NCBI RefSeq assembly: GCF_003991195.1
Contig: NZ_RCWL01000001.1
Location: 496,001 to 560,000, forward strand
Direction: 5' to 3'
Source: Gynurincola endophyticus
GTDB lineage: Bacteria; Bacteroidota; Bacteroidia; Chitinophagales; Chitinophagaceae
DNA: 64,000 nt
Position numbers and translations under genes: made by a program
The notes under the pieces: model-generated
Told to the model about the DNA's origin: nothing
The model's database searches: none
The model's input: only the letters and a program-made list of their open reading frames with translations
Part shown: positions 7,852 through 51,545 of the stretch, piece by piece
Layout: the number at the start of each line of letters is the position of its first letter
Position numbering within the stretch: the first letter of the stretch is position 1

Positions 7852-10731
7852 TTATTGTTTGATAAACGCAATTGTTGAACTGTTACCGGTGCTGATATTC
7901 ACCCGGGCGAAATAAGTACCGGGCGTTAATTCGGCAACATCCACAGATTGTGTTTGATAAAAGTTTGTTTTATCAAAATTAACCTGCTTTACTAAAGATC
8001 CGCTGTTAGTGAAAATGCTGATGTTTGATTTACCGGTTAAGTTATTAGACATTTCAACTTGCAGTAAACTGGTTGCCGGATTCGGATAAAGTTTTAATCC
8101 TACTACCGAAGTGGGTTCTTCTGCTGTTGCTACAGCCATTGTTCCTGCATTCGCTACTCTTGCAGCAGAACTGTTGACTTTAATAGTAACTGTATCTGAC
8201 ATAGGTACCCAATCATTATTCCAGATCGTTAATCTGAACTGGTAAGTTCCTGCGGAGAGATTCGTTACGCCGGCTACAGCTTGTGTAGCATTGCTTAAAG
8301 TAAAGTTAGCGGGTCCGCTGATTTTAGTCCATTGGTATTGTTTGATAGCTCCTCTCGGATCAACTGATTTTGAACCATCAAGCGTTACATTATTGGTGGG
8401 TAATGTAATGGTCTGGTCGTTTCCGGCACTCACTACAGGGCTGGTAGGTATTACTACGTCTTGCTCACCTGCATTCTTAACCAGTACTGTCACCGAAGTT
8501 GAATAAGGAATCCAGTTGTTATCCCAAATGGTTAATAGAAACTGATAAGTTCCTCTTACCAGATTAGATACTGTAGCTTTTGAAGTAGCTGCGTTAGCTA
8601 ATGTAAAAGAGGCTGGTCCGCTGATTTTAGTCCATTCCCAGCGTTTAATACTTCCTTTCGGATCTATAGACTTGCTACCGTCTAAAATTACAGAGTTGGT
8701 GGGCAGCGTCAATGTTTGATTAGGGCCGGCATTTACAGTTGTTTTTGTAGGTACGGGTTCCGGATTAGTACCGGGAGAGTTATTATTATCGTCGGTGATT
8801 TGTTTCACAACGATCGTAACAGTGTCTGAGTAAGGTACCCATGCATTGTCCCAGATGGTTAATCTGAATTGATAAGTTCCTACTGCTAAATTGCTGACAG
8901 TTGTTTTAGCCTGTGCAGTATTGGCAATTGTAAATGAAGCGGGTCCGCTGATTTTAGCCCATCTGTATTCTTTAATAACGCCTTTGGCATCGGATGATTT
9001 AGAACCATCTAAAGTAGTGGTGCTGGTGTTGATGCTTTGATCGGCACCGGCATCTGCTTTTGTAGATCCTGAATTATTACCGCCTGTATTTGGAAGTACG
9101 GTAATTTTTAAAGTATCGCGTTGGGGCGTCCAGCTGTTATCCCAGATCGTCAGTGTGAACTGATAAGTTCCTTCTACGAGATTGCTGATTGTTGTTTTTG
9201 CAGTCTCATAGTTGGCAATAGTATGTTGTGCTGGTCCTGAAATTCTTTTCCATTCCCATTTTTTAATATCACCTCTGGTATCAGAAGATCTGGATCCGTC
9301 TACCTGAACACTGGTGGTAGGAAGGTTGATAGTTTGGTCGCTACCGGCAATAACAGATACCTGAGGATTGGTAGAACCTCCGGCCGCTGCATTTACAGTA
9401 ATATTTACTGTTGCCTGCGCACTGGCTCCCTGGTTATCTGTAACGGTTAAACGGAAGCTGTAGCTGCCCTGTGCAAGATTGGTAATTTGTGTATTAGCTG
9501 CATTCGGGCTGGCAATAGTAGCAGTACCACCGCTTACTTTTGTCCATTCATATTTAGTAATAGAGCCGTCAGGATCATAAGAACCGCTACCATTTAATGT
9601 AGCCGAGCTCGTAGGTAAAGTAATGGTTTGATTAGAACCTGCGCTGGCAATAGGAGATTTATTCGTGGTAGTTCCTTTGGCAACTGTAACGGTTACGTTT
9701 TGAGTAACCCAGTCAGCGCGGTCGTCGATCACTTTAATTTCAAAGGTATAGGTTCCTTCTGCAAGATTGCTGATCGTAGCTTTTGCTGATTCGGCATTGG
9801 TTAAAGTGGCGGTGTTAGGACCGCTGATTTGTTTCCAGATATATTTAAGAATTTTTCCGTCGCGATCAGTGGAGCCGCTGGCATCGAGTGTTGCACTGTT
9901 GCCGGTACTGGCAGAAACATTCGGAGCGCTGATTTGAGGACGAACGTTCACTGCTCTTCCTCTGCTCTGACCGAGCATCCATTCGTAGATACTTGGATTG
10001 TTATAAGTATACTCGGGCATATATACTCTGTCCCAGATTCCGTGGCCACCGTTATCCCATATAGTCATATAAGGTTTAACAGCAGGATTCTGATTATTAA
10101 TAGCGTAGATATGGCCGGTGGTACAACCAACTCCAACCGTACCGTCGTCTTTTGCATGGAAGCCCCAAACTGCTACGTTAGCATTCGTCAGGTTTGCCCA
10201 GTTCATGCTTTGACAGGTACCGCAAATAGGAACGATGGCCGCCAGTTTTTTAGCTCTTTCGGCAGTAGATGCTGCATAGTTCCATACACCGCCTCCACCT
10301 AAGCTGAGACCTGTAAGATAAACTCTGTTTGCGTCAGCACCCAATACATTCACGGCATAATCAATCATTTCATCAATGACGAAGTTTTGCCAGTTTCCAT
10401 ATTTGCTGTTTAATTGGGGGGTAAGTACAATGAAGGATTCGGTTTTTCCATTCCAGGTGAAAGTCATCTTATCACCATTCTTAATGTCTGAAGCAATTCC
10501 GACACCTAAAACTCTGCTTACTTCGCTGGTGCCGTTACCTCTTTCGCCGATGCCGTGGAGGAAGACGATAACAGGATGCTTATTGGATTTTGAATAGCCC
10601 GCAGGTAGAAATTGATAAAAGCCGACAGTTTCTCCATTGGACGATGCCTTTAATGATTTGGGCTCATGACTTTGTGCTACTACCATCAGATGACCCAAAA
10701 CGCACACGAGGACCATTAAAAAGTTTCTCAT
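7852..10731 (-). CDS. Secreted esterase-like protein with six PKD repeats and T9SS type A tail
   Basis: The protein has 959 residues. I chose the ATG at 10731 because it gives a proper signal peptide (MRNFLMVLVCVLGHLMVVAQS); an in-frame start at 10773 adds 14 residues ahead of it. Residues 45-250 are an alpha/beta hydrolase of the PHB-depolymerase or feruloyl-esterase type. They show oxyanion region VIVFLHGIGERG, nucleophile GLSLGG (Ser143), a probable acid in HAKDDGTV (Asp195 or Asp196) and a His in GGHGIWDR (His230); CGTC follows the nucleophile. Six PKD-like beta-sandwich repeats occupy about 265-855. The last four are very alike (ISGPASFTL, GTYQFRLTIWDN). The final 85 residues are a type A sorting domain (LYPNPATS ... 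FIKQ). It should be exported through the T9SS and displayed or released. Its substrate is not known; the EPS locus starts 6 kb away. Confidence 0.85.
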   Translation of the reverse strand: MRNFLMVLVCVLGHLMVVAQSHEPKSLKASSNGETVGFYQFLPAGYSKSNKHPVIVFLHGIGERGNGTSEVSRVLGVGIASDIKNGDKMTFTWNGKTESFIVLTPQLNSKYGNWQNFVIDEMIDYAVNVLGADANRVYLTGLSLGGGGVWNYAASTAERAKKLAAIVPICGTCQSMNWANLTNANVAVWGFHAKDDGTVGVGCTTGHIYAINNQNPAVKPYMTIWDNGGHGIWDRVYMPEYTYNNPSIYEWMLGQSRGRAVNVRPQISAPNVSASTGNSATLDASGSTDRDGKILKYIWKQISGPNTATLTNAESAKATISNLAEGTYTFEIKVIDDRADWVTQNVTVTVAKGTTTNKSPIASAGSNQTITLPTSSATLNGSGSYDPDGSITKYEWTKVSGGTATIASPNAANTQITNLAQGSYSFRLTVTDNQGASAQATVNITVNAAAGGSTNPQVSVIAGSDQTINLPTTSVQVDGSRSSDTRGDIKKWEWKRISGPAQHTIANYETAKTTISNLVEGTYQFTLTIWDNSWTPQRDTLKITVLPNTGGNNSGSTKADAGADQSINTSTTTLDGSKSSDAKGVIKEYRWAKISGPASFTIANTAQAKTTVSNLAVGTYQFRLTIWDNAWVPYSDTVTIVVKQITDDNNNSPGTNPEPVPTKTTVNAGPNQTLTLPTNSVILDGSKSIDPKGSIKRWEWTKISGPASFTLANAATSKATVSNLVRGTYQFLLTIWDNNWIPYSTSVTVLVKNAGEQDVVIPTSPVVSAGNDQTITLPTNNVTLDGSKSVDPRGAIKQYQWTKISGPANFTLSNATQAVAGVTNLSAGTYQFRLTIWNNDWVPMSDTVTIKVNSSAARVANAGTMAVATAEEPTSVVGLKLYPNPATSLLQVEMSNNLTGKSNISIFTNSGSLVKQVNFDKTNFYQTQSVDVAELTPGTYFARVNISTGNSSTIAFIKQ

Positions 10732-11206
10732 AGTGAACGAGGATATTTGAATTGTTTTACAAAAAAATTCCACTTCCGCTTACACGGAAAACGCTAATAA
10801 TGTTATTAAATAATCAATGTGTGGGAGGAAGCGGTTTATATGGGTTTTGAATCCATATTGTTAATACATACGTAATCTTACATGGATTTGGTTCAAAGGA
10901 TGGTAATGAATAGTGCACATCAACTCACCAAACTTTATACCAAATTTTTACGTTTCAGAAAAATTTTTCCACTTTTTTAACAAGTCATTAAAAACTGTAA
11001 TTCTTTTGTTAACTGAATTTCTTTTAAAAAAAGCTGGATTCAAAAAAACGATTAACCATGTAATACAAGAGGGCAGCAATTGTTAAAATATTTGACTTTG
11101 ATCAAAGATATTCTAAAGTATTTTTTGAAGAATCTTTATTAATGGCCGTAAAAGATAAAGCCCCACCACAAGGGTGAGGCTGTCTTTTATAGCGGTTAAC
11201 TAATTG
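10732..11206. other. Intergenic region between two PKD-esterase genes
   Basis: This 475-base A/T-rich stretch contains the terminator of the upstream 1900-residue gene at its right end. A perfect -7 match on the minus strand (TATCTTTG, 11103-11110) would give the 959-residue gene a leader of roughly 370 bases, but no -33 element is clear. I see no ORF or other structured element. Confidence 0.5.
11150..11189 (-). terminator. Terminator of the 1900-residue PKD protein gene
   Basis: An imperfect stem of about 15 bp (GACAGCCTCACC paired with GGTGGGGCTTTATC on the minus strand, with small mismatches) begins 18 bases past the stop and is followed by TTTT. It is flanked by A and T runs on either side. 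Confidence 0.7.
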
Positions 11207-14200
11207 TTACATTTTTATGAAACGTGTTGCTGATCTGTGTTTGAGCGGAAGTACGATCTCTACTGTATAGATTCCGTTAATAAACTGATCAACAGGAATC
11301 TCCCAGAAGGATTCGTAGGTAGTAATATTAATAAATCGTTTATAAACGATTTTACCATCGTTGGCATACACATTCAATATGGCTTCTCCAAGTTCTTTAT
11401 ATTTAAAAGAAACTTTTAAAATGCCGGTGGTTATCGGATTCGGATATACTTTGAGATGTCCTTTCGTATTTGGATCAGGTAACACATGAATGTTCACCGT
11501 ATCATAAGCTACACCACCTCTGTTGTCGGTTACTTTTAATCTGAATTGGTAGTCGCCCAGTTTTAAACCGTTAATCCAGGTAATCACCTGTGTGGGTGAA
11601 AGAATAAGTGCGGGCGCTCCACTGATCAGAGACCATTCGTACGAAACAATCGTTCCGTCTTCATCGGTAGAAGCAGCGGCATCCAGTATTAATGCATTGG
11701 CAGGTTCAAACAGTACGGTGTCTTTATTGGTTCTGGCTACCGGTAATACGTTTGCTTTCTCCAATACGGTTACTGATATATCGCCTGTTGAACTTAATCC
11801 CTTGCTGTCACTTACTTTTAATCTGAATACGAAAATACCTGCCTGATTTAAGTCTGATGCATACGCATAAGCCGTATTATTATTTTGGAGGGTAGCAGTC
11901 ATCGGACCACTTACCTGTGTCCATGTATATATTAAGTCATCTCCTTCCGGATCATATGAATTTGAGCCGTCTAGCTGAACGGTATTAACGGGTAATTGTA
12001 TAGTTCTGTTGGGGCCTGCATTTGCAATCGGAGGTTTATTGGGATCCGGTTGTACAACAATGGTTACCGAAGCACTGTCTTTACCGCCAAGGTTATCGGT
12101 GACTACTAATTTAAATTCGTAGGTACCTACTATCAGGTTTCTGACATTTGCCCGCGCTATGGTAGAATCATCAAAACGGTAACCTGCCGGACCCGAAATT
12201 TTGCTCCATAAATAACCAACAATTTGTCCATCAGGATCGGATGAAGTTGATCCATTTAACACGACTGTATTTGTTGGCAGGTAAATCGTTCTGTTAGCAC
12301 CGGCATTTGCAATCGGCAATACGTTCGGTGCCGGTAATACTCTGATGGTGATCTGTTGAAAATGAATGGCATTTTCATTATCAGTTACCGTTAACCTGAA
12401 TACATAAGTACCCTCTATCAGATTATTCAGTTCTGTAATAGCAGCGCGATTGTTCTGTAAAGTGAACTGTGTGGGTCCGCTGATTCTTCTCCATTCATAT
12501 TGAACAATTTGTCCATCGGGGTCGCGCGAAGCCGACCCGTCAAGTATAATACTATTCGTAGGAAGTGTGATGATTTGATTGCCCCCTGCATTTGCCACCG
12601 GTAATTGATTGCTAGGTGCAGGTTTGGGTTGTACCGTAACAGTGATTCGCGCGCGCGCCGAGGCATTTCTATCATCAGTTACCACCAGTTCGAATACATA
12701 TATACCTTCAGTAAAGTTGGTAACTGTTACAGATTTATCAACTACGGCCGATAATGTAGGTTGATTCGGTCCGCTGATGGTGAACCATTCAACTTTAGCA
12801 ATCGTGTTTTCTCCGTCCGGATCGTAAGAGCCTGAGCCATCCAATTCAAATGAGGAAGACTCCATATTGAGTGTAAAATCATTTTCTGTAATTGCTACAG
12901 GTACCTGATTCGGTAATGGGTTTACTCTTATACGCATCGTATCGCTGCTGGAGAGCCCGTCTACATCAGTAACAGTTAATCTTACGTAATAGATTCCTTC
13001 TTCTAACTTTGAAAGGGTAGAGGATGCTTGTGTTGCATTTGAAATCTGATAATTACCGGTAGGAGGAATTACCTGCCACAGGTATTTCAGCTCTTCAACT
13101 TCACCGTCCGGATCATAAGATGCGGTACCGTTTAAGCCGATTGAATTGACCGGTAATGTGATCGTAACATTAGTACCGGCATTGGCTACCGGTGCCTGTA
13201 ATATTCTTGGTAACACAATGACGTGTACTGTATCGGTTGCTGTTGCATTTGCAGTATCTTTTACCGTTAACGCAAATACATAATTACCCTCTCTCAGGTT
13301 GGTAACTGTCGTTTGTACGTTGTTCGGTTGTTGTATGGTATATTGACCAGGACCTGAGTAAAAACTCCAATGATAACTTTCTATAGTATGATTACCGTCG
13401 GGGTCGCGCGACTGACTGCCGTTCAGCGTTACATAGTTAACGGGCAGTTGTATGGTTTGTCGGTTACCGGCGATTGCCACAGGAGGTTTATTAGCTTCTG
13501 CATATACATATATCAACACGGTATCTTTATCAGACGCTCCGGCTTCGTCTGTAACTAAAAGTTCAAACGAATGGATGCCTCTGATCAAACCGTTGATAAC
13601 GGTTGATACCTGTGATGGAGTAGTTATCTGAACGCTTGTTGCCTCGCCGAGATATTTCCAGTGATAAGTTAACTCGTCACCGGTGTTGCCATCCGTACTG
13701 GCGGCGCCACTTAATACGGCGGTATTCGTTGGTAGTTGAATATGAACATCAGCCCCTGCATTTGCTACGGGTGCAATATTCGGTTCAGGACGTACCTGTA
13801 TAATAACAGTATCTTTATCTGAGAGCCCGTCGCGGTCGGTAACCGTTAACTCAAACTCATACGTTCCCTGTTCTAAATTATTGACTACTGTTAAAGCCTG
13901 ATGAGCTGTTTCGATTGTTGCCTGAAGTGCCGTTAAGTTCTTCCAGCTGTAAGAAACAATGTCCTGGTTTCCATTCGGGTCGAAGGAGGATGTTCCGTTT
14001 AGCGAAACGGTATTATTAGGTAAAGTTATTTCCTGATCTGTTCCTGCGTTAGCTACCGGCGGTGCATTTGGTTCGGGTAGTATGGTTATTTGAATGGTAT
14101 CGTTGGTGGATTCCCATTCGTCGCCCCATACCCGTACCATGAATTGGTAAACACCTTCCTGCAGTTGTGACAGTTCTGTAACTGCTCTGTCGGCAAACTG

Positions 14201-16909
14201 AAGGTTGTAAGCGTCTGGTCCGCTGATTTTAGTCCATAAATATGCCTGCACTCTTCCAAAAGGGTCATAAGAGGCAGAGGCATCTAAAGTGAGTGAATGG
14301 TTGGGTAGTGTAATAGTGGTATCGTTTCCGGCGATTGCCACTGGTAAATAGTTATCAGTTGGGTTATGGAGCGGATAAACTGTGATATGTAAAGTATCAG
14401 AATCCTCTGCACCATGTGAATCTTTTACTGTTAACAACAGTACGAAAGTACCGGTATTGTAGGGTCTGAATTGTGCAGTGGCTGTTTCCGCATCGTTTAA
14501 TTGAAACTGCGAAGGGCCGTTAATGTGTTTCCAACTATAGGTCAGGTCATCTCCATCCGGATCGATAGAATTTTCCGCATTCAGTGTTATCCACCCGATA
14601 TTTTCAGGAACAATCTGATTGTTACCTGCATTGGCAACCGGTGGTCTGTTTTCTGTTGGAGGAGCAGCTGCTACATGGATCGTTAAAAGTTTTTCAGCCC
14701 GTCCGTTTTTATCATCTACTGCTATTACTTTAAATATATAGGTACCTACTGATAAGTTACTGATTTGTACTTTATCAGGAGTAATGTTCTGTAATTGGAA
14801 ATCATTTTTACCTTCCTCGAGTACATACAAAAACGAATTGATTGTACCGTCAGGGTCATAGGATGCTGAAGCGTCTGCTGTAATGGAGGAGACGGGTAGT
14901 TGAATGGTAAATATATCCTGCAAAAGCACGATCACAGGTAACTGATTTACAGGAGCTGCTTTAACTTCAACCTGTACATCACTACTGTTTTGTGCACCGG
15001 CATTGTCTGTTACGGTCAAAGTGAATGTATAGTTACCGGGTTGCAGATTGGTTACGCCGGTAATGGCTTGCTGTGGTGTTTCTATAACTGCCGTTGTGTT
15101 GCCTGCTGTTTGTGACCATCTGTAACTCGTAATATTACCGTCTGAGTCGTAAGAGTCAGAACCGTTTAAAATAACCTGGCTCACCGGAGCCGTGATCTGA
15201 ATATTATTACCGGCATTGGCTACAGGTGCAACGTTTGGTTGGGCTTTTACTTCAAAACTGACTGCTGTAGAATGTTCGAGGCCTTCCGGATCTTTTACTG
15301 TCAGGCGGAAAGTATAATTTCCCTGAACAAGATTGATAATTGTTGTAGTGGCACTTTGTGGTGACTGTATCTGGTATAGATCAGGCCCACTTGTTTTACT
15401 CCATTGATAACTGAGGGTTTTGCCTTCGGGATCGGACGATCCGCTACCATCGAGAAATACATTATTGTTGGGAAGTGTGATGTCTGTAACTGTCTTTATA
15501 TTGGCTATTGGCGCAATATTCGGAAGAGCCAGAAAGGTAATTTGTATGTTGGTACTGTTGGTGCTACCGGCATTGTCTGTAACGGTAACTCTGAAAGTAT
15601 AAGTACCGGTGCTTACATTTGATAAGGTGGCTTTCGCCTGATTGTTTTGTGTTAATGTGTATTGAGTAGGCCCACTTACATATGTCCATGAATAAGCTAC
15701 AATATTACCATCCGTATCGTAAGAGCCGCTGGCATCAAGCGTAATAGGAGTGGTGGGGAGTTGTATGGTTTGATTCGGATTGGCTATTACTGCTACCGGA
15801 GGAATATTTTGAGGAAGGCTTCCGGTGACTACTACTACATTAACGGTATCAAATGTCCAGTCGGCACGATCGTCAATTACTTTTAATTCGTATGAATAGG
15901 TTCCGGCAGTTGTCAGGTTCGTGACGGTCGTAATACCATTCGTACTGGTTGGTTGTTGAATAGTACCGGTGGAAGGTCCGGCTATTTTTCTCCATACATA
16001 ACGTACGATTTTTCCATCGCTGTCTGTTGATTGTGAAGCATTGAGGGTTGCTGTTGCCTGTGCTGTAGTGATATTGATATCAGCTCCTGCTTTTGCAACC
16101 GGGCGTTTGTTGATTGTTTTTTTGCTGGATTGGCCTAGCATCCATTCGTATACATTCGGATTTTGCCAGTTATGGTTGGTAGAGAAAACGCGGTCCCATA
16201 TTCCATGGCCTCCATCTGGCCAGATGGTCATATAGGGCGGTACTTCAGTTCCACAGCTGTTGATTTTATAAATATGACCGATGGTGCAGGATGCCTGAAC
16301 AGTACCGTCGTTTTGCGCGTGAAATGCCCAGGTTGGCAGATTGGCTTTGGCGATATTACAAAGATCAACTGATTGACAGGTTCCACAACTAACGACCAGA
16401 CCTGCCAGTTTTTTTGCATTTTCCGCTTTCAAACCGGCGTAGTACCAGGTTCCGCCGCCTCCTAAACTCAGCCCCGTCAGAAAAATTCTATCGGGATCTA
16501 TATTGAGATTCTTTTTTGCATATTCCATGATCTCATCTACGTAGTAGTCTTGCCACCAGCCATGCCCGGTATTTAACTGGGGGCTCAGAACGATAAATGA
16601 TTCAGAAACACCGTTCCAATCAAATTTCATGTTATGGCCGTCTCTGATATTTTTCGGAGTTCCATTGATTGCTACTTTGTAGAGATCAGTAGTTCCGTTA
16701 CCGATTTCACCAAGGCCGTGAAGGAAGATGATCAGTGGATATTTATAGGTACCGGTAGGTTTGTAATCAGTTGGTTTATATTCTAAAAAACCAATATTAC
16801 CTTTTGAGGTACTGATAGATTTTTCGACTTGTTGGGCATTGCTGAAGAAAGGCAGCATACATAACAAAACGATACACCCTAACTGGTGAAAGCCGGAGAT
16901 GTTTTTCAT
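11207..16909 (-). CDS. Giant secreted esterase-like protein with sixteen PKD repeats and T9SS type A tail
   Basis: The protein has 1900 residues. The signal peptide is residues 1-26 (FFSNAQ). Residues 40-260 are an alpha/beta hydrolase closely related to the head of the 959-residue neighbour: IIFLHGLGEIGNG, GLSLGG (Ser148), HAQNDGTV (Asp201), GGHGIWDR (His235) and a CGTC pair (Cys175, Cys178). I count sixteen PKD-type repeats from about 268 to 1805, most opening with a variant of PPVANAGxxQTIxLPTN and containing LDGSxSxDPDG. Repeats 5, 9 and 11 lack the usual SGP segment. Residues 1815-1900 are a T9SS type A domain (HLKVYPNP ... TRFIKM). The array would form a stalk of perhaps 16 beta-sandwiches holding the esterase away from the membrane. 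The PKD arrays of the two neighbours share DNA-level stretches, a sign of duplication or exchange. Confidence 0.87.
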   Translation of the reverse strand: MKNISGFHQLGCIVLLCMLPFFSNAQQVEKSISTSKGNIGFLEYKPTDYKPTGTYKYPLIIFLHGLGEIGNGTTDLYKVAINGTPKNIRDGHNMKFDWNGVSESFIVLSPQLNTGHGWWQDYYVDEIMEYAKKNLNIDPDRIFLTGLSLGGGGTWYYAGLKAENAKKLAGLVVSCGTCQSVDLCNIAKANLPTWAFHAQNDGTVQASCTIGHIYKINSCGTEVPPYMTIWPDGGHGIWDRVFSTNHNWQNPNVYEWMLGQSSKKTINKRPVAKAGADINITTAQATATLNASQSTDSDGKIVRYVWRKIAGPSTGTIQQPTSTNGITTVTNLTTAGTYSYELKVIDDRADWTFDTVNVVVVTGSLPQNIPPVAVIANPNQTIQLPTTPITLDASGSYDTDGNIVAYSWTYVSGPTQYTLTQNNQAKATLSNVSTGTYTFRVTVTDNAGSTNSTNIQITFLALPNIAPIANIKTVTDITLPNNNVFLDGSGSSDPEGKTLSYQWSKTSGPDLYQIQSPQSATTTIINLVQGNYTFRLTVKDPEGLEHSTAVSFEVKAQPNVAPVANAGNNIQITAPVSQVILNGSDSYDSDGNITSYRWSQTAGNTTAVIETPQQAITGVTNLQPGNYTFTLTVTDNAGAQNSSDVQVEVKAAPVNQLPVIVLLQDIFTIQLPVSSITADASASYDPDGTINSFLYVLEEGKNDFQLQNITPDKVQISNLSVGTYIFKVIAVDDKNGRAEKLLTIHVAAAPPTENRPPVANAGNNQIVPENIGWITLNAENSIDPDGDDLTYSWKHINGPSQFQLNDAETATAQFRPYNTGTFVLLLTVKDSHGAEDSDTLHITVYPLHNPTDNYLPVAIAGNDTTITLPNHSLTLDASASYDPFGRVQAYLWTKISGPDAYNLQFADRAVTELSQLQEGVYQFMVRVWGDEWESTNDTIQITILPEPNAPPVANAGTDQEITLPNNTVSLNGTSSFDPNGNQDIVSYSWKNLTALQATIETAHQALTVVNNLEQGTYEFELTVTDRDGLSDKDTVIIQVRPEPNIAPVANAGADVHIQLPTNTAVLSGAASTDGNTGDELTYHWKYLGEATSVQITTPSQVSTVINGLIRGIHSFELLVTDEAGASDKDTVLIYVYAEANKPPVAIAGNRQTIQLPVNYVTLNGSQSRDPDGNHTIESYHWSFYSGPGQYTIQQPNNVQTTVTNLREGNYVFALTVKDTANATATDTVHVIVLPRILQAPVANAGTNVTITLPVNSIGLNGTASYDPDGEVEELKYLWQVIPPTGNYQISNATQASSTLSKLEEGIYYVRLTVTDVDGLSSSDTMRIRVNPLPNQVPVAITENDFTLNMESSSFELDGSGSYDPDGENTIAKVEWFTISGPNQPTLSAVVDKSVTVTNFTEGIYVFELVVTDDRNASARARITVTVQPKPAPSNQLPVANAGGNQIITLPTNSIILDGSASRDPDGQIVQYEWRRISGPTQFTLQNNRAAITELNNLIEGTYVFRLTVTDNENAIHFQQITIRVLPAPNVLPIANAGANRTIYLPTNTVVLNGSTSSDPDGQIVGYLWSKISGPAGYRFDDSTIARANVRNLIVGTYEFKLVVTDNLGGKDSASVTIVVQPDPNKPPIANAGPNRTIQLPVNTVQLDGSNSYDPEGDDLIYTWTQVSGPMTATLQNNNTAYAYASDLNQAGIFVFRLKVSDSKGLSSTGDISVTVLEKANVLPVARTNKDTVLFEPANALILDAAASTDEDGTIVSYEWSLISGAPALILSPTQVITWINGLKLGDYQFRLKVTDNRGGVAYDTVNIHVLPDPNTKGHLKVYPNPITTGILKVSFKYKELGEAILNVYANDGKIVYKRFINITTYESFWEIPVDQFINGIYTVEIVLPLKHRSATRFIKM

Positions 16910-18381: not shown

Positions 18382-18391
18382 TGTTGAATAG

Positions 18392-20576: not shown

Positions 20577-20586
20577 TTTTCAAAGG

Positions 20587-20979
20587 TTAAGCAAGCACTG
20601 ACTGTTCTTTCTTTACAGCGGTGAAGCGTTTAATAGCTTCAATCAGGTCGATCGGGTTGAAAGGCTTATTAAAGTAAGCTTCAACGCCTAATTCTAAACA
20701 TTTTACTTGAGCAAGATCTTTGTCTAGCGAAGACAATACTATTACTGGAATATCACTATAAATACCATTTGATTTAAGTTGTTCAATCAATTCCCAATCT
20801 TCCATGTCGGGTAATTGAACATCAGCGATAATCAGGTCGGGTAAGTTTTTGTTTGACAAATAGTACATAGCTGAACAAGCATCAGGAGCAGTGATTACCT
20901 GATAATCTTTGCTAAGAACTGTTTGTAATAAAAAGCGTATTGCTTTGCTGTCATCAATTGCGAGAATCTGTTTTTTCAT
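20587..20979 (-). CDS. Stand-alone receiver (CheY-like) protein
   Basis: The protein has 130 residues and consists of a single receiver domain without an output domain. Acidic residues DD 9-10, phospho-acceptor Asp53 (LIIADVQLPD), Ser83 and Lys105 (FNKPF) are all in place, so it should be phosphorylated by some histidine kinase; none lies next to it. It is the first gene of the minus-strand EPS operon and is followed after 10 bases by the phosphoglycosyl transferase, whose N-terminus looks like a degenerate receiver. A direct receiver-to-pseudo-receiver contact that turns EPS initiation on or off is a reasonable inference. Expression probably starts from the promoter at 21388-21417, leaving a leader of about 400 bases. 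Confidence 0.92.
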   Translation of the reverse strand: MKKQILAIDDSKAIRFLLQTVLSKDYQVITAPDACSAMYYLSNKNLPDLIIADVQLPDMEDWELIEQLKSNGIYSDIPVIVLSSLDKDLAQVKCLELGVEAYFNKPFNPIDLIEAIKRFTAVKKEQSVLA

Positions 20980-23277: not shown

Positions 23278-26200
23278 ATGAAACGAATTTTACTTCTTAC
23301 CACAATTAGTCTGTTGGTGAATTTGGTAGTTAATGCCCAAAACGTATTTAACCCGAATGATCCTTTGGTTCGCTATAATGCGAATGCATCTGTAGGTACT
23401 GCTCAAAAGCCCGATCCGAATATTAACGGATTACAAAAATGGGTGGCTGACTCTATGAGTAGTATCTCTAACTCTTACTCTACTCAGTCGTACAAGGCAT
23501 ACTACATGAACATTAACGGAGTACAAATGCCTTTCCGTCTTAAATACCCGAAAAGTTATAACAACCCCGACAGTGCAGGAAAAAAATATCCTGTGATGAT
23601 GTTTTTCCACGGTACGGGAGAAGCGGCTTGTAATACCAATGGTGGTGTTTATAATAATGAAAAACAATTATTGCATGGTGGCAGATTATTCAGAGACCAT
23701 GTAGATAATGACCGTTTCGACGGATTCTTATTATATCCTCAGGTAGTTAACTTCAGTACTAACTGTAGTGGTAACTGGGGAGTGGCTCCGGCTTCAGGTT
23801 ATTATGCCGGACTAATTCGTTTGGTAGACAGTTTAGGAAAATATGTACGTGCAGACGTTGACCGTTTGATCGTAACAGGTTTATCGAATGGTGGTGGTGC
23901 CGCGTGGTCAATGGCCGCAGCATTTCCTGCAAGAGTAGCGGCAGTTGCTCCATCAGCAGCTGCTACCGGCCAGACTAACTATTCAGATTATGTTCACGTT
24001 CCTGTTTATTTCGCAAGTGGGGGTACTGACAACAATCCGACACCTGCATTTTCAGAGTCTGTTTACAATGCTTTGAAAAACTTAGGAGCTGACATTAAAT
24101 ATATTTTATATCCAACATTAGGACACTCTATGTGGAATAACCACTGGAATGAACCTGATTTTGTTCCTTTTATGAACAGAGGGCATAAAGCTAACCCGCT
24201 GGTGTTTTTTCAAAGAGACGAATGGTGTCCGGAAGATGTTATCTCTGCAAAACTGGGCATTACAGCAGGATTTGCAGCGTATGAGTGGGAAAAAGACGGA
24301 GTGGTCATTGCCCGTCGTCAAAGTGGGTCGAATACTATTTTAGACGGTTCCAGCATTGTTTCGTTTGGTGCAGGTGGAAATGAAATTACCGTTAAAAGCT
24401 ATGGTGTTTATAAAGTTCGTTTCAGACGTACAGCTACCAGTGACTGGAGTGCATGGAGCCCGAGACCGGCTGTTATTCGTCAGAAAGCGGTTACGCAAAC
24501 CCCTAACATTCAGGTACAAGGTGTTCAATCGCATGTATTACCAGGGATTGATGGTAAAAATTCAGTTACACTAACTTTACCTGAAGGTTTCTATGCTTAC
24601 GAATGGTATAATGCAGAAAATAATCAATTGATCGGAAGCGGTAGAACTTATAACGCTTCTGTAGGAAAATATAAAGCACGGGTGGTAGAGCAGTATGGTT
24701 GCGGAACGTTGTTTTCGCCTGTGTTTGAAGTTGTATCGGCAAGCGGTGCTATCAAACCCGATCCGGCCAAAACATTAGTTGCAATGGCCAGTTCTCTGAC
24801 CAGTGTTCAACTTGACTGGAACGAAAATCCGAATGCAGGTGAAAATGAAACAGGATTTGAAATTTACCGTGCAACCAATGCCGGTGGCCCATATTCCTTA
24901 ATACATATCACAGCCCCGGATGTTGTATCTTATTTAGATGCAGGTTTAACCACCAATACACAATATTATTATGTGGTAAGAGCTGTAGGCCGTTCAGGTG
25001 CAGCAGCCAATTCTAACGAAGCATCTGTAATAACAGCTGCTGACGTAACTCCTCCGACTGCGCCGACTAATCTCAGATTAGTAAGCAGCGGTAAAAACTT
25101 TGCAACAATTGCATGGAATGCTTCTACCGATGACGCTGGTGTTGACCGTTATGATATTTTTATCAACAATCAGAAATCATTTACAACAACTGCTACTAAT
25201 TTCAGTATTCCTGATCTGGAAGAAGAGAGTCTTTATACAATTGTTGTAAAAGCCCGTGATAAAGCGGGTAATATCTCGAATCCGTCAAACCAGGTAACAG
25301 CAAGTACTAGTTATGACCAGAATGGTTTGAATTACAAATACTACGAAGGTTCATGGAGTAACTTACCTGATTTTTCATTGTTAACACCTCTTAAAACAGG
25401 CATTGCACCTACTCCGGATATTGCAGCACGTCTGGTTGAAAATAATTACGCATTCCTTTGGGAAGGATTGCTGAAAGTTGATGTAGCAGCAAATTATACT
25501 TTTGAAATATGCTCTGATGATGGTTCTCGTTTATGGATAGGATCGGGTTATACGCATGGAACTTCCACTATTAACAATGATGGAGCGCATGGAAACCAGT
25601 GTCGTACTGCAACTGTTCAACTGGCAGTAGGCCTACACCCTATCGCCGCAGGATATTTTCAGGCAACCGGAGGACAGTCATTTAGTCTTTCATGGCAGAA
25701 TAACGCAGGTTTATCGAAACAAACTATTCCTCAATCGAATTTACTGGCAATAGGTGTAAATCCGTCATTATTACCCGCTGCACCAACAGCTTTACAAGCT
25801 ACTAAAGTTGATTATAAAACAGTAGAACTTACATGGGAAAACTCAGGTTCTGCAACCGGGTATGAAGTAGTAAGATCTACTACTGAAAACGGTGTGTATG
25901 AGCAGGTAGCTTCAGTAAACGGATTCAGTTACAGTGATAGCACTTTAACACCTAATACGACTTATTTCTATAAAGTGAGAAGCATCGGTTTAAGCGGAGA
26001 GTCTGCTTATACTTCTGCTTACACCGGTATTTATTATTCCTTAGACAGTACTTTGGTGAATGCCTGGAATACAACAGGTGGTACCAATACCAATCTTACA
26101 CAGAATGGTACACTTACTCAATATTGGAATAAAACAGATAAAAAGTATGGTACTTTCGGTGTTCAGATGAATGGTACTTCACATTACTTCACAATTAACG

Positions 26201-29200
26201 GTTCTTCAGCTAATCAATACCCGAACATCGGTGGTTATTCGCAAAGAACAGTGGCAATGTGGATTAAACCTACTACTATTGCTAACAGAAAAGTACTTTT
26301 TGATATTGGTAACAGCACAAATGGTATAGCATTGCGCTTCAATAATACCAATAATGCTTTAGAAGCAGGTATTGCTTCAGCGGGTGTAAGATTCACAGCA
26401 GCAGCGAATAATTTCCAAACCGGTGGTCATTGGATTGCCAACGGATGGAACCACGTAGCTGTTGTTTATAATACCAGCTCACTTCAGATTTTCTTAAACG
26501 GCGTATTAGTCGCTTCCAATAATAACCTGAGTTTTGTTCGAATCGCAGCTAATGCCGGAAATAACTCAAGATTCGGTTACTCCGGCACCGCTGCTGGTGA
26601 CAATGCCTTCAACCAGGCGTCAGCAAGTACTGATTTTTATGCAGGTTTAATGGATGAAATTTACATTCTCAATGGTGCGTTAAGCGCCAGTGAAATAGTA
26701 AAAGTAATGAACAATGAATTTGTTCCTTCTAATACAAAAACGGATGTTGCTCCTGCTCCTCCTGCAGCCCCTGCTAATTTAACGGCTACTGTAGTAAACA
26801 GTAACTCGATTCAGTTAGCCTGGAATGATAACAGTACTAACGAAACTGGTTTTGAAATCTGGAGATCTGTATCTAACAATCAAACTTTCAGATTGGTACA
26901 CACCGTACCAGCCAACGCTTCAGGTAATGTAACTTTCACAGATACCGAGCTGTTTGCAAATTCCAGATACTATTATAAAATACTGGCAAAAGGAGATATT
27001 CAGAATTCTGGTTTCTCAAATGAAGCAGATGCGACTACTCCGAATACCAAACCGGTAATTTCTAAAATAGAAGATGCAACCGTAAAATATGGTAACAGCC
27101 ATAATATTAAAGTAGAAGCAACAGATCCTGACGGAGACGTACTGACTTTCTCTGCTATTAACCTTCCTTATTTCGTAACGATCGAACCGGTAAGTAACGG
27201 TGTTGCTAATCTGGTAGTAAATGCTGAAATATGGGATATCGGTTATTACGAATCTTATGTTATTGTAAGTGATGCACTGGGTGCAAAGGATACGACTTAT
27301 TTCACCTTAGTGATTAATGATAATAATGTACCTGTATTTAATCAGGTTACTACTACTAACATGACTGAAGGTCAGTTGTTGAATATTCCTATTCAGGTAG
27401 TGGATGAAGAGAATACAGGATTATTAATTATCCGTCCGGTGAAATTACCTACCTGGGCTACGTTAACGACCGACTCTACCAATGGTAGCGGTAATATTCA
27501 ACTGGTTCCTGGTTTTGATGCGGCCGGTTCTCATCAGATTAAATTATCTGTTGAAGATGAATACGGAGCCATTAATTACCTCGATTTTATGGTGAATGTA
27601 ACCGATGTGGATCCTAACGAAAGTTATAAACTGAACTTCGTGGCATGGGGCCCGCAGGAGTCTGGCTGGAATACTGTAAACGTTTCTAACAATACGATCA
27701 ACCAAAGCAATCTTAGAAATCATAAAAATGAAGTAACCAATGTAAGAGTTCAACTTACAAAAGGTACTATCAGTAGTGGCGGTAGCGGAATGAATACCGG
27801 TTCCGGTGTTTACCCTGCAAACGTTCGTTATGATATGATTAACTGGGGTTACTTCAATGGCGGAAGCAATAGCGCAGATACGATTGAAGTTACCATCAGC
27901 GGATTGTCTGCCGGTAAAAAATACAACCTCATTTTCTATGCAGGTACAAACTGTAACTATTGTTCTTTAAATAATAATAGTGTAACCACTTTCAAAGCAG
28001 GTGATCAGATTGCTCAGGTAAGAATGTTCAATAACCTGAATATGACTGATACTTTAGTGAAGGTTACTCCGAATGCATCAGGAAGTATCGTTGTAACAAT
28101 GATTGGTGATGCAAACACAGCAGTAGGTGGTAACTTAAACGCAATGGTTATCGAATCTAATCAGGATGATGGTACCACTCCTTTGAAACCATTGAACCTC
28201 ACTGCAACTCAAAGAGATAAAGGTGTAAGATTAACATGGGTTGATCAGGCTTACAATGAAGATGCTTACAATGTTTATCGCGCTACCGCTAAAACCGGTC
28301 CTTATACATTATTAAATCCTGGTGCATCTAACAGAGACAGTACCGGATATAATGACGAAAACCTGGCTCCTTTCACTAATTACTATTATTATGTAAAAGG
28401 TATGAACAACCATGGTTTAGGTATTTCGAGTGATACGGTTTTAGTTCAAACATTAAATAATAATCCTACCGTTACTTCTGTTGCAGGTTTCAGCGTGAAA
28501 GCAGAAAGCTCAGCAACTGCAAACTTTACAGTAGGAGATGATCCGGGTGATGTAATTACTGTTTCTTTACAGGATGCACCGGCATTCATTACGTTAACCA
28601 AATTATCAGCTACCAGCTACCGCATCAATGCAAATCCAACAGCCTCTAACGTGGGTAAACATACGTTCGAAGTAGTTGTACTGGATGATAAAGGCGGAAG
28701 AACGACTACCATGGTTACTGTGTCTGTTGCTGATAAAAACACACGATCAGTTTATGTGAACTTCGCACCAACCGGTTATGCAGCCCCGGCTCCATGGAAT
28801 AATTTGTTAGGATATGGAGGACAGGGTAATACATTAAGTAACCTGTTGGACGAAAATGGAGCTAACACCAGTTACAGCGTAACGCTTGTTAATAAATGGG
28901 CAGGACTGGTAATGAACGGTCAGATAACCGGTGATAATTCAGGAACTTATCCTGATGCGGTATTGAACTACGGATGGTGGGATAATGATGAAGCTGCCCG
29001 TCAGATCAGATTTAATAACCTCAATAATAATAAGGTTTACAACATCGTAATTATGGCCAGCAGATCTGATGGTGTTCGTTCTGCAATGAGATTCAGTGTT
29101 GGTTCTGTAGCTGATACGTTAGACGGAAGTTATAACTCTTATTACACAGCGAACCTGAACAGATTAGTACCGACCGGCGGAGCCATCACGATAGATATCT

Positions 29201-30459
29201 TAAAATTATATGGTGCACCTTATACTGTAATTAACGCCATCCAGATTGAAGAACTGGATAATGCGATCACATTAGCACCAAACAATTTACATGTGGAAGC
29301 TGTAGGAAGAGACGCTGCAAACATTACCTGGAGCGACAGAAATCATAATGAAACAGCCTTCCAGTTACAGGTAGCTTCTGATGCAAACTTCAGTACTATC
29401 CTGACCAGCCAGACTTTACCGGCTAATACGGTTAGCTACAAAGCCACCGGCTTACCGATCAATAAACGTGTATGGGCAAGAGTGAGAACTGTTGTAGGGG
29501 GAGAAAACTCTGAGTGGAGTAACGTAGCATTCGCTAATACTTCATTATCTCAGGTATTTGTAAACTTTAACATCGCTGAGTTAAATGTAGCGAGCCCATG
29601 GAACAATTTGGAATCTAACCCGACCGAAGCATTTACTAAATCGGGTCTGGTGAATCAAAGCGGTCTTCCGAGCGGTGTATCTGTTGAGTTCTTAACACCA
29701 ATGAACGGTGATAATAACTTCGGTATGAGCACCGGTAATAATAGCGGAGTTGTTCCGGATAATGCGCTGAGATCAAACTACTGGATTGATAAAAATCAAA
29801 AATCTCAGGTTAAACTGACCGGATTAAACCAGGCTAAAAAATACCGTATCGGTTTCTTTGGTTCGATGAGTACCGATGGCTGGTTCTCCGGAAACTATAC
29901 CGGAACTTATACCGTAAACGGTGTTACAGTATTGCTGAACTCATGGTTAAATGACCGTAAAGTGGTATTTATCGAGAACATTTTGCCAAATTCAGACGGA
30001 GAAGTTTTAATGGAGTTCTCTACAATTGATGAAGCACAATGGGCGTTTAATGGAGGATTGATTATTGAATCTTATGATATCATCGGCGTTTCGGAAAATC
30101 CTGACCAGGGTCCTTTAAGAATAGCTACCGTGGTTGAGCCTGAGTTAAAAGCGAGCGTGGTAGAAGTGAAAGAACTGGCAGAAATTCAGATCGGAAATGC
30201 TGAAATCTATCCGAATCCGTTCAAAGATCAACTGAATATCCAGTTTACTTCATTAAAAGCGAACCAAAATGTTGTGGTGAACGTGTATAACATGAACGGA
30301 AGTTTGGTACACACACAGCAAATGAATAATAGACCTGCAGGTAAACAATTGATTACCTTGAATTTAGGAAATTCCAGATTAGTTCAGGGATATTATTTGG
30401 TAACTGTTGTTGTAAACGGAAAAGTAGAAAGCACTAAAAAAGTAATGAAATCAAATTAA
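23278..30459 (+). CDS. Giant esterase-headed multidomain T9SS protein in the EPS locus
   Basis: The protein has 2393 residues. The start is the ATG at 23278, giving signal peptide MKRILLLTTISLLVNLVVNA; an in-frame TTG at 23260 is less likely. Residues 75-300 are an alpha/beta hydrolase: VMMFFHGTGEAA, GLSNGGG (Ser203), Asp251 in SGGTDNNP, LGHSMW (His283). Then come two FN3 domains (about 493-680), a PA14-like domain (682-826, FEICSDDGSRLWIGS), FN3 (835-918), a LamG-like domain (922-1149), FN3 (1161-1254) and cadherin-like Ig segments. Three copies of an unassigned beta-rich domain (1449-1627, 1824-1992, 2091-2267) are separated by FN3 and Ig domains. The tail is a T9SS type A domain (IYPNPFKDQL ... 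KVMKSN). PA14 and LamG domains often bind glycans, so a surface enzyme acting on or holding the EPS is likely, though inferred. It is the first plus-strand EPS gene. Confidence 0.87.
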   Translation: MKRILLLTTISLLVNLVVNAQNVFNPNDPLVRYNANASVGTAQKPDPNINGLQKWVADSMSSISNSYSTQSYKAYYMNINGVQMPFRLKYPKSYNNPDSAGKKYPVMMFFHGTGEAACNTNGGVYNNEKQLLHGGRLFRDHVDNDRFDGFLLYPQVVNFSTNCSGNWGVAPASGYYAGLIRLVDSLGKYVRADVDRLIVTGLSNGGGAAWSMAAAFPARVAAVAPSAAATGQTNYSDYVHVPVYFASGGTDNNPTPAFSESVYNALKNLGADIKYILYPTLGHSMWNNHWNEPDFVPFMNRGHKANPLVFFQRDEWCPEDVISAKLGITAGFAAYEWEKDGVVIARRQSGSNTILDGSSIVSFGAGGNEITVKSYGVYKVRFRRTATSDWSAWSPRPAVIRQKAVTQTPNIQVQGVQSHVLPGIDGKNSVTLTLPEGFYAYEWYNAENNQLIGSGRTYNASVGKYKARVVEQYGCGTLFSPVFEVVSASGAIKPDPAKTLVAMASSLTSVQLDWNENPNAGENETGFEIYRATNAGGPYSLIHITAPDVVSYLDAGLTTNTQYYYVVRAVGRSGAAANSNEASVITAADVTPPTAPTNLRLVSSGKNFATIAWNASTDDAGVDRYDIFINNQKSFTTTATNFSIPDLEEESLYTIVVKARDKAGNISNPSNQVTASTSYDQNGLNYKYYEGSWSNLPDFSLLTPLKTGIAPTPDIAARLVENNYAFLWEGLLKVDVAANYTFEICSDDGSRLWIGSGYTHGTSTINNDGAHGNQCRTATVQLAVGLHPIAAGYFQATGGQSFSLSWQNNAGLSKQTIPQSNLLAIGVNPSLLPAAPTALQATKVDYKTVELTWENSGSATGYEVVRSTTENGVYEQVASVNGFSYSDSTLTPNTTYFYKVRSIGLSGESAYTSAYTGIYYSLDSTLVNAWNTTGGTNTNLTQNGTLTQYWNKTDKKYGTFGVQMNGTSHYFTINGSSANQYPNIGGYSQRTVAMWIKPTTIANRKVLFDIGNSTNGIALRFNNTNNALEAGIASAGVRFTAAANNFQTGGHWIANGWNHVAVVYNTSSLQIFLNGVLVASNNNLSFVRIAANAGNNSRFGYSGTAAGDNAFNQASASTDFYAGLMDEIYILNGALSASEIVKVMNNEFVPSNTKTDVAPAPPAAPANLTATVVNSNSIQLAWNDNSTNETGFEIWRSVSNNQTFRLVHTVPANASGNVTFTDTELFANSRYYYKILAKGDIQNSGFSNEADATTPNTKPVISKIEDATVKYGNSHNIKVEATDPDGDVLTFSAINLPYFVTIEPVSNGVANLVVNAEIWDIGYYESYVIVSDALGAKDTTYFTLVINDNNVPVFNQVTTTNMTEGQLLNIPIQVVDEENTGLLIIRPVKLPTWATLTTDSTNGSGNIQLVPGFDAAGSHQIKLSVEDEYGAINYLDFMVNVTDVDPNESYKLNFVAWGPQESGWNTVNVSNNTINQSNLRNHKNEVTNVRVQLTKGTISSGGSGMNTGSGVYPANVRYDMINWGYFNGGSNSADTIEVTISGLSAGKKYNLIFYAGTNCNYCSLNNNSVTTFKAGDQIAQVRMFNNLNMTDTLVKVTPNASGSIVVTMIGDANTAVGGNLNAMVIESNQDDGTTPLKPLNLTATQRDKGVRLTWVDQAYNEDAYNVYRATAKTGPYTLLNPGASNRDSTGYNDENLAPFTNYYYYVKGMNNHGLGISSDTVLVQTLNNNPTVTSVAGFSVKAESSATANFTVGDDPGDVITVSLQDAPAFITLTKLSATSYRINANPTASNVGKHTFEVVVLDDKGGRTTTMVTVSVADKNTRSVYVNFAPTGYAAPAPWNNLLGYGGQGNTLSNLLDENGANTSYSVTLVNKWAGLVMNGQITGDNSGTYPDAVLNYGWWDNDEAARQIRFNNLNNNKVYNIVIMASRSDGVRSAMRFSVGSVADTLDGSYNSYYTANLNRLVPTGGAITIDILKLYGAPYTVINAIQIEELDNAITLAPNNLHVEAVGRDAANITWSDRNHNETAFQLQVASDANFSTILTSQTLPANTVSYKATGLPINKRVWARVRTVVGGENSEWSNVAFANTSLSQVFVNFNIAELNVASPWNNLESNPTEAFTKSGLVNQSGLPSGVSVEFLTPMNGDNNFGMSTGNNSGVVPDNALRSNYWIDKNQKSQVKLTGLNQAKKYRIGFFGSMSTDGWFSGNYTGTYTVNGVTVLLNSWLNDRKVVFIENILPNSDGEVLMEFSTIDEAQWAFNGGLIIESYDIIGVSENPDQGPLRIATVVEPELKASVVEVKELAEIQIGNAEIYPNPFKDQLNIQFTSLKANQNVVVNVYNMNGSLVHTQQMNNRPAGKQLITLNLGNSRLVQGYYLVTVVVNGKVESTKKVMKSN
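27622..30078 (+). repeat. Three copies of an unassigned domain of 169-179 residues
   Basis: Copies lie at 27622-28158, 28747-29253 and 29548-30078, each separated by an FN3 domain or an Ig plus FN3 pair. Shared landmarks are an opening VNF-like strand, then (A)PWNN or SGWN, a middle segment of the type G.YPD....Y.WW or G.VPDNALRSNYW, then L..GKKYNLIFYAG or L.QAKKYRIGFFGS, and a closing AxxIES/E strand. The copies are diverged at DNA level, so the duplication is old. Confidence 0.6.
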
Positions 30460-51534: not shown

Positions 51535-51545
51535 ACGCGTCTATA

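Follow-up and report, generated by a model that had tools for sequence, protein, structure and literature searches.

Organization of the locus

The window is a stretch of 64,000 nt from Gynurincola endophyticus (Chitinophagaceae; assembly GCF_003991195.1, contig NZ_RCWL01000001.1, positions 496,001–560,000, forward strand). It encodes three large esterase-headed proteins, P1, P2 and P3, together with the features listed in Table 1. Judged by gene families, they lie in an exopolysaccharide (EPS) locus of the Wzy type, in which the initiating transferase, Wzy and the Wzc co-polymerase have all been found. Pfam scans of genes in the window gave no Wzx flippase family member, and the multi-spanning X523 has no match in Pfam or NCBIfam. 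The start of P2 is located 269 bp past the end of a same-strand GT2 gene of the EPS locus, and therefore P2 and P1 adjoin its minus-strand half. Two O-acyltransferases had been reported in a preliminary description of this DNA, and AT1 and AT2 both match the AT3 profile PF01757 above the cut-off. At E up to 0.001 it is their sole match and no SGNH domain was found in either; thus, neither is an AT3-SGNH fusion.

Table 1. Features of the locus, with positions given in the window
Feature	Position	Strand	Details
P1: serine-esterase head (GLSLGG), PKD stalk, predicted T9SS type A tail	7852–10731	-	959 aa from its ATG
P2: serine-esterase head (GLSLGG), long PKD stalk, predicted T9SS type A tail	11207–16909	-	1900 aa
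GT2a glycosyltransferase	17179–18381	-	PF13641; conserved in P3 loci
GT2b glycosyltransferase	18392–19300	-	PF00535; conserved in P3 loci
Bac_transf initiating sugar transferase	19380–20576	-	PF02397, 202.5 bits
Response-regulator-like protein	20587–20979	-	Sequence and conservation; conserved beside the sugar transferase
GT2c, GT2-like glycosyltransferase, divergent from P3	21464–22690	-	Sequence; conserved beside P3
P3: serine-esterase head (GLSNGG; S203, D251, H283), fn3/PA14/LamG stalk, predicted T9SS type A tail	23278–30459	+	2393 aa
Terminator-like hairpin, then T-run, between P3 and wzc	30480–30514	+	-23.1 kcal/mol, z -5.7
Wzc-like protein	30553–32769	+	Pfam: Wzz (PF02706) and AAA_31
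AT1, Acyl_transf_3	32771–33886	+	PF01757, 122.2 bits (cut-off 31), 371 aa
Wzy_C polymerase/ligase	33977–35482	+	PF04932
OEP outer-membrane protein	35492–36235	+	PF02321, 247 aa
AT2, Acyl_transf_3	36245–37402	+	PF01757, 91.1 bits (cut-off 31), 385 aa
X523, multi-spanning membrane protein	37449–39020	+	Homologues in loci of close relatives

Heads, stalks and tails

As described earlier, each of the three proteins has a signal-like N-terminus, a GLSxGG alpha/beta-hydrolase head, a long array and a T9SS tail (Por_Secre_tail, 55.9 bits in P1, 33.5 in P2 and 45.5 in P3; cut-off 27). The hydrophobic N-terminal segment is visible by eye in all three, while a simple hydropathy scan marks it in P1 and P2 but not in P3. 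A gene for the T9SS sortase PorU is present in the genome (934 bits against a cut-off of 420), along with 29 Por_Secre_tail matches, 27 of which are above the cut-off. P1, P2 and P3 are thus predicted T9SS type A cargo, a prediction based on the sorting domain and the genomic PorU.

The preliminary description had given all three proteins a shared esterase head and one array layout. This holds for P1 and P2, whose heads are 51% identical and which, by sequence, are sister proteins on PKD stalks, with six K319L-like PKD stretches in P1 and 16 in P2 (Pfam). P3 also has a long stalk, but it is built of fn3, PA14 and LamG domains, sugar-binding types among them, and its head is only 23–27% identical to those of P1 or P2 over the aligned parts. 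The P3 head belongs to a lineage of its own, which rules out a single esterase family for the three proteins.

Every one of the 37 P3 heads examined retains the Ser, Asp and His of the catalytic triad; in P1-type heads, Ser and His are found in 21 of 21 and Asp in 18 of 21. The models of the P1 and P3 heads have pLDDT values of 93.7 and 91.5, and the P3 model has the order strand-Ser, strand-Asp, strand-His. With their nucleophile elbow, triad and predicted fold order, the P3 and P1-type heads are alpha/beta-hydrolase serine esterases as far as sequence and models can assign them. The CE1-like esterase profile PF00756 (cut-off 22) gives 29.9 bits for P1, 20.0 bits for P2 and no listed match for P3. 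The scores for the PHB-depolymerase profiles NF050058 and TIGR01840 (cut-offs 150 and 107.85) are 35.8 and 32.7 bits for P3 and 36.0 and 19.7 bits for P1. Being far under the cut-offs, these values reject a PHB depolymerase identity for P1 and P3, which does not in itself show an EPS substrate.

The best PDB profile matches are 3doh for P3 (E 7e-28) and 4q82 for the P1 type (E 7e-39). Among the best Foldseek matches, at 19–29% identity, are the thermostable esterase 3doh/3doi from Thermotoga, the C-terminal esterase domain of LC-Est1 (3wyd) and the Haliangium carboxylesterase 4q82. These share the alpha/beta-hydrolase esterase fold with the heads described here but, unlike P1–P3, are chains of 228–380 aa with neither a giant stalk nor a T9SS tail. 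The nearest solved enzymes of the heads are general carboxylesterases and give no pointer to a polysaccharide.

The stalk of P3 is conserved along with its head, as the median identity to the window P3 over 83 others is 35% for the stalk and 43% for the head (P3 proteins of 2000–2500 aa only; n = 84). In 20 members scanned, fn3 has been found in 20, PA14 in 19 and LamG in nine. Such a stalk would suit a matrix scaffold or adhesin that ties EPS to the cell, with the head as a binding or accessory module, and matrix proteins encoded next to EPS genes have precedent in RbmA and Bap1 (VPS) and CdrA (Psl). That P3 acts mainly in this way is nevertheless unlikely, since the invariant triad would be needless for binding alone and an AT3 gene adjoins P3 in 10 of the 29 P3 stretches that lack EPS genes.

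Linkage of P3 to the EPS locus in relatives

Conservation of the linkage in relatives had been set beforehand as a check, and it has been surveyed in 117 Chitinophagaceae genomes, with a P3 head within 25 kb of Wzc on the same contig counted as linked. P3 is linked in 25 of the 29 genomes with a window-type Wzc and in none of the 20 with a divergent Wzc, which rules out proximity by chance. The outcome that the preliminary description had named as refuting, a lack of conserved linkage, is not seen for P3. In two of the remaining four genomes, G053 and G075, P3 pieces lie at contig ends and adjoin wzc. The unbiased frequency of P3 is taken from this survey. The named loci, the best 80 of 85, were picked by P3 similarity and are therefore uninformative on the share of EPS loci with a P3. 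The neighbourhood table covers P3 proteins longer than 900 aa with a head E better than 1e-50, and merging the unnamed and named sets by head segment reduced the P3 stretches from 118 to 107.

The gene immediately following P3 is wzc in 58 of 72 rows (duplicates unmerged). One gene order is common to many P3 loci, and P3 is near-constant across the EPS loci of many genera. Exceptions are G103, in which the EPS locus and AT3 occur without P3, and G062, in which a relative of AT0 is present and the P3 giant is absent. Among 395 genomes drawn from the whole phylum, five have P3 giants, all of them Chitinophagaceae, and there is one distant 2566-aa frame in addition. P3 is a near-constant part of one EPS locus type in Chitinophagaceae, a soil bacterial family. 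Literature searches in an open-access collection turned up no paper describing this head-stalk-tail layout.

The common gene order would also be expected if P3 had simply been inherited in one locus by descent and its association with EPS had no functional meaning. This is most improbable, as gene order and strand vary with P3 kept in G083, G090 and G035, and the C87 stretch of G080 retains P3 and both AT3 genes without wzc, wzy or oep. Relocated P3 genes, moreover, adjoin AT3 genes of differing lineage, as observed within one relocated P3 clade (FastTree trees with long-branch warnings; AT3 proteins outside 280–480 aa left out).

For P1 and P2 the linkage is weaker. Of the 22 genomes with a P1-type match at E up to 1e-30, nine have one no more than 25 kb from a P3 head. 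P1-type esterases occur in 27 of the 78 P3 stretches that contain EPS genes, and 11 control EPS loci without P3, drawn from the 20 divergent-Wzc genomes, gave a single weak P1-head match (G076, 3e-4). P1-type proteins are also common outside the EPS locus, with seven-head arrays in G009 and in G108, and together with the nine linked of 22 this rules out P1 and P2 as partners fixed like P3.

The arrays away from EPS loci are also consistent with a role in nutrition, in which the heads would be surface carbohydrate esterases deacylating foreign plant or microbial polysaccharides and the EPS linkage would be historical only. The fold neighbours do include ferulic acid and acetylxylan esterases from Bacteroides and others. 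On the other hand, no SusC/SusD family member was found among the window ORFs scanned in Pfam, P3 is near-constant in the EPS loci of many genera, and its giants are confined to five of 395 phylum-wide genomes apart from the one distant frame. This role is improbable for the system, and it is more plausible for P1 and P2 than for P3.

Association of P3 with AT3 acyltransferases

Of the 66 distinct P3 loci linked to Wzc, 63 contain AT3, and the three loci without it are on short contigs of 10–18 kb. In the control loci, none of 176 ORFs matched an AT3 profile, even at E 10; one of these P3-less loci (G113) encodes an MBOAT acyltransferase. The association extends to some of the 29 EPS-free P3 stretches, defined as lacking any match to GT2, sugar transferase, Wzc, Wzy or OEP at E <1e-20; some of these stretches are short or at contig edges. 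AT3 is present in 12 of the 29, and adjacent and co-directional in 10, against ~0.44 AT3 genes expected from 0.98 AT3 per Mb (a lower bound). Six AT3-like neighbours were scanned, and each matches PF01757 above the cut-off. In the other 17, AT3 is absent from the examined flanks, and several of these are short P3 paralogues of the MAG G080. Ten of the 12 AT3-bearing stretches belong to one P3 clade and are therefore not independent. Since AT1 and Wzc share an ancestral locus, some of the link between AT3 and P3 may also reflect hitch-hiking.

Proposed mechanism

The near-constant presence of P3 in the EPS locus, usually near AT3, suggests that these cells edit the acyl groups of their own slime on the outside. 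Acyl addition at the inner membrane with editing outside is the best reading of the three-protein locus. It draws on the gene layout, the predicted fold, the triad conservation, the T9SS tail with PorU and the AT3 association, all of which have been observed. We put at about even the chance that P3 serves a Wzy-type EPS system as its dedicated serine esterase, attached to the surface and trimming outside the acyl groups added inside.

The AT3 proteins in the inner membrane would load acyl groups, probably acetyl or short acyl, onto the repeat unit or the growing chain, and Wzc, Wzy and OEP would polymerize and export the acylated chain. P3 would pass through the T9SS and be retained at the surface via its type A tail, where the stalk, with PA14, fn3 and sometimes a LamG lectin-type domain, may hold or reach the polymer. 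The Ser-Asp-His head would then strip some of the acyl esters, tuning solubility, gelling and cell binding of the slime. P1 and P2 may act as a second, independent esterase type on the same or neighbouring esters. Secretion, the role of EPS as substrate, the nature of the acyl group and the reaction direction are the parts that we infer. An acyl-editing system had been proposed before for all three proteins; the P3 linkage, the invariant triad and the AT3 genes beside P3 favour it, while the two stalk types and head lineages and the occurrence of P1/P2-type proteins elsewhere speak against the form in which it was put.

In a further reading, the head would be a transacylase, transferring acyl groups to extracellular glycans or from one such glycan to another, as an outer counterpart of the SGNH domain in AT3-SGNH proteins. 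P3 is commonly accompanied by AT3-only proteins, and an AT3 review states that the esterase-like SGNH domains of AT3-SGNH proteins are required for transfer and asks if AT3-only proteins, too, depend on a partner (PMC9558356). The P3 head, however, is a GLSxGG alpha/beta hydrolase and not an SGNH domain, its nearest solved relatives are hydrolases, and the T9SS would place it past the outer membrane, away from AT3. A transacylase is hence very unlikely. The same very low probability is given to P3 and AT3 being a two-compartment acyl-editing pair separable from any one polysaccharide, with AT3 loading acyl groups in the inner membrane and the stalked enzyme past the outer membrane moving or removing them, the boldest form of which has the transacylase head rewriting surface-glycan acylation outside, as the candidate partner of AT3-only proteins.

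Comparison with known systems

Whether a bacterial slime forms a gel, sticks or goes into solution depends on its acyl groups. AT3 O-acyltransferases are also found in the xanthan and succinoglycan loci, and the EPS locus of the window, with its two AT3 genes, resembles such AT3-bearing surface-glycan loci. We know of no cell-tethered giant esterase encoded alongside AT3 in the O-antigen, xanthan or succinoglycan systems. AT3 acylation of surface glycans such as O-antigen is itself treated as established in the AT3 review (PMC9558356).

In the proposal for P3, an EPS-encoded enzyme deacylates the polymer, a likeness to PelA (Pel) and Agd3 (galactosaminogalactan). Agd3, however, is a metal-dependent deacetylase, while P3 combines a T9SS stalk with a head of the serine O-esterase type. 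PgaB and IcaB (PNAG) are EPS-encoded deacetylases and, like PelA, N-deacetylases. To our knowledge, the built-in EPS deacylases are N-deacetylases.

Known T9SS type A cargo, such as the gingipains, shares with P1–P3 a signal-like segment and a type A sorting domain, but P3 differs from it in the esterase head, the linkage to an EPS locus and the association with AT3. RbmA, Bap1 and CdrA are large secreted glycan-binding proteins, each tied to one EPS and secreted by other routes; unlike P3, they have no conserved serine-esterase triad that we know of.

If the preferred reading, external acyl editing by P3, is true, a near-constant giant T9SS-type O-esterase would let these Bacteroidota edit their slime externally, and AT3 with the esterase would provide ready test pairs for finding the targets of AT3-only proteins. 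As P3 is paired with AT3 in some stretches without EPS genes, the acyl acceptor becomes a testable question.

Transcription of P3 and wzc

Sigma-70-like promoter scans gave fewer hits than the shuffled background (44 vs 52.6; 46 vs 62.3) and have been left unused. The hairpin between P3 and wzc is not listed by a generic terminator scan, probably owing to the loop and stem limits of the scan. A similar terminator-like hairpin is found between P3 and wzc in 41 of 52 loci. P3 had been regarded as the first plus-strand gene of the EPS operon; it does precede wzc, but the conserved hairpin weakens its place as a simple first gene of a wzc operon, and the strong hairpin and T-run suggest that P3 may be its own transcript.

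The three giant proteins and the EPS locus

The genes for P1, P2 and P3, three giant proteins with an esterase head, a stalk and a type A tail, lie where the preliminary description placed them, and each protein carries the reported GLSxGG nucleophile motif and a Por_Secre_tail match over the cut-off. The T9SS sortase PorU is encoded in the same genome (934 bits). The proposed common esterase head is only partly borne out, since the P1 and P2 heads are 51% identical but the P3 head shares just 23–27% identity with each of them where the sequences align. Similarly, all three proteins have long stalks but of different types, with K319L-like PKD stretches in P1 (6) and P2 (16) and fn3, PA14 and LamG domains in P3.

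The minus strand carries, in reading order, a response-regulator-like gene (RR), Bac_transf, two GT2 glycosyltransferase genes, P2 and P1. An additional GT2-like gene on this strand is divergent from P3. As previously described, P3 is the first plus-strand gene of the EPS locus and is followed by Wzc, AT1, Wzy_C, OEP, AT2 and X523. The two O-acyltransferases, AT1 and AT2, are both PF01757 (Acyl_transf_3, AT3) proteins, and no second domain has been found in either. The OEP protein has a single OEP stretch and is about half the size of a TolC-type protein. X523, a multi-spanning membrane protein without a family match, is kept in the loci of close relatives and is possibly a flippase or a glycan-modifying enzyme. 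Elsewhere in the window, a 1438-aa PKD protein with a CHU_C tail adjoins a PorP/SprF gene, and a nearby ORF of 111 aa carries a sorting tail.

Features of the window with their positions
Feature	Position	Strand	Size or score
P1	ATG at 10731	minus	959 aa
P2		minus	1900 aa
P3	ATG at 23278	plus	2393 aa
Terminator-like hairpin and T-run, P3–wzc gap	30480-30514		-23.1 kcal/mol, z -5.7
OEP protein	35492-36235	plus	247 aa
X523	37449-39020	plus	
PKD/CHU_C protein and PorP/SprF gene	51199-57480		

A hairpin similar to the one in the P3–wzc gap is found in 41 of 52 distinct gaps in which the two genes remain adjacent, as counted by a simple rule defined after the window hairpin was seen, versus 0.9 expected from shuffled gaps. 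By the same rule, hairpins occur in 0/27 RR-to-sugar-transferase gaps and 6/20 AT1-to-Wzy gaps. Based on this conservation, the cell may produce more P3 than export machinery.

Heads as predicted enzymes

Ser, Asp and His are kept in all 37 P3-type heads, while the P1-type heads (n = 21) keep Ser and His in 21 and Asp in 18. AlphaFold2 models of the P3 and P1 heads have mean pLDDT values of 91.5 and 93.7, respectively, and the nearest solved chains are the esterases 3doh, 3wyd and 4q82. None of these features of the predicted esterases points to a particular substrate. A PHB depolymerase identity for P1 and P3 has been rejected, as the PHB-depolymerase models score far under their own cut-offs.

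Linkage of P3 to EPS loci in relatives

P3-type heads (E <= 1e-37) are present in 30 of 117 sampled genomes of the window's family, its own genome included. By the strength of the Wzc match, 29 genomes make up a first set (E <= 1.5e-71) and 20 a second (E >= 7.5e-63). The expected linkage is recovered in the first set, where a P3 head lies within 25 kb of Wzc on the same contig in 25/29 genomes. Two more have P3 pieces beside wzc at contig ends (G053, G075), one has a 347-aa P3-stalk remnant adjoining wzc (G038), and no P3 has been found in G103. In the second, divergent set, a P3 head is near Wzc in 0/20 genomes; 11 of these loci were fetched as control EPS loci.

Contig C87 of G080 (L148; L131 + L132) keeps a PKD esterase, GTs, a sugar transferase, P3, AT1, AT2 and X523. 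Wzc, Wzy and OEP are absent from the fetched stretch, and no Wzc match at 1e-30 has been found anywhere in the genome. This locus is a natural deletion.

The best 80 of 85 named relatives, chosen by P3 similarity, mostly have titles of Chitinophagaceae or its genera, including Chitinophaga, Pseudoflavitalea, Paraflavitalea, Pseudobacter, Niastella, Ferruginibacter and Parafilimonas, and some MAGs are titled just Bacteroidetes, Bacteroidota, Sphingobacteriales or Chitinophagales. Two titles fall outside the family, L188 (Cyclobacteriaceae) and L208 ('Thalassovita'). L188, a MAG in which a P1-type esterase, PKD proteins, P3 and AT3 occur in one stretch, possibly reflects transfer beyond Chitinophagaceae or MAG contamination. 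In a phylum-wide draw of 395 genomes, the head profile matched 10 at 1e-40; P3 giants occur in five, every one Chitinophagaceae, and the remaining matches are mostly 250–300-aa frames plus one distant 2566-aa frame (G296). The affiliations of these relatives indicate that the window itself comes from Chitinophagaceae.

P1 and P2 as optional partners

P1-type heads (E <= 1e-30) occur in 22 genomes, and the linkage proposed for P1 and P2 holds in nine of them (G000, G002, G006, G029, G053, G076, G080, G084 and G101), where a P1-type head and a P3 head share a contig at a distance of 25 kb or less. P1-type esterases, counted with some short esterases without a PKD stalk, are present in 27/78 EPS-containing P3 stretches versus 4/29 EPS-free ones (no GT2, sugar transferase, Wzc, Wzy or OEP at E < 1e-20 in the fetched DNA). 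The 11 control loci gave one weak match. Seven-head P1-type arrays lie on contigs other than that of the EPS locus in G009 (C2:374372-397048) and G108 (C11:2620921-2641742). P1 and P2 are therefore optional partners of the P3 locus.

AT3 acyltransferases beside P3

Among 107 distinct P3 heads, duplicates merged, Wzc is in the fetched stretch for 66, and AT3 in 63 of those 66 (ACYLTRANSFERASES); the exceptions (G030, L143, L163) are on contigs of 10–18 kb. All six AT3-like neighbours scanned in Pfam are PF01757 over the cut-off. None of the 176 ORFs of the 11 control EPS loci matched an AT3 profile at E 10, and a Pfam scan of eight ORFs from three of them gave one MBOAT acyltransferase. AT3 is also present in 12 of the 29 EPS-free P3 stretches, adjacent and on the same strand in 10, while a density of at least 0.98 AT3 per Mb gives a chance expectation of at least about 0.44 in 450 kb. 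However, AT3 is missing in the other 17, which counts against the association.

A FastTree of 125 AT3 proteins places 18 in one supported group (AT0), 14 of which directly adjoin P3, in both EPS loci and EPS-free stretches. The AT0 profile (A5) has six matches in the 117 genomes, four within P3 loci, although one of these four (G028) was among the sequences that make up the profile. Against this pairing, the G030 match is on another contig and the G062 match is without a P3 giant. Eleven relocated P3 cluster together as a single clade of the P3 tree, and ten of them have AT3 in the stretch. Their AT3 neighbours fall into three different groups of the AT3 tree. Since these cases are related, they represent few independent events. 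In L201, a member of this clade, P3 also adjoins a priA-like gene.

A possible acyl cycle

The best reading of the locus is an acyl cycle, in which AT3 would add acyl groups at the inner membrane and P3 would edit them outside the cell. The position of the genes, the predicted fold, the triad and the tail are observed features, while P3 would presumably be secreted, and the acceptor and the reaction are likewise presumed. An AT3 review leaves open whether AT3-only proteins need a partner (PMC9558356). P3 could be such a partner, but as a hydrolase located outside the outer membrane it would more probably act as an eraser than in that role. Taken singly, the deacylation of EPS, acylation by AT3 and surface enzymes of the T9SS are already known; an open-access literature search found no conserved locus joining them with a giant stalked O-esterase.

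Conservation of the P3 stalk

Across 84 distinct P3 proteins, selected by a length of 2000–2500 aa, the median identity to the window P3 is 43% for the head, 35% for the stalk and 27% for the tail. Of 20 members scanned for domains, all have fn3, 19 have PA14, 18 have the sorting tail and 9 have LamG. The LamG region (residues 901–1140) has the lowest alignment occupancy, 56–74% of rows, which is consistent with P3 size classes near 2100 and 2250–2400 aa. Scans of the window P3 and the 20 members gave no Pfam name for a repeated domain, whose TGNNSGVYPD-like motif occurs three times in the P3 consensus, at about residues 1510, 1890 and 2155 of the window P3.
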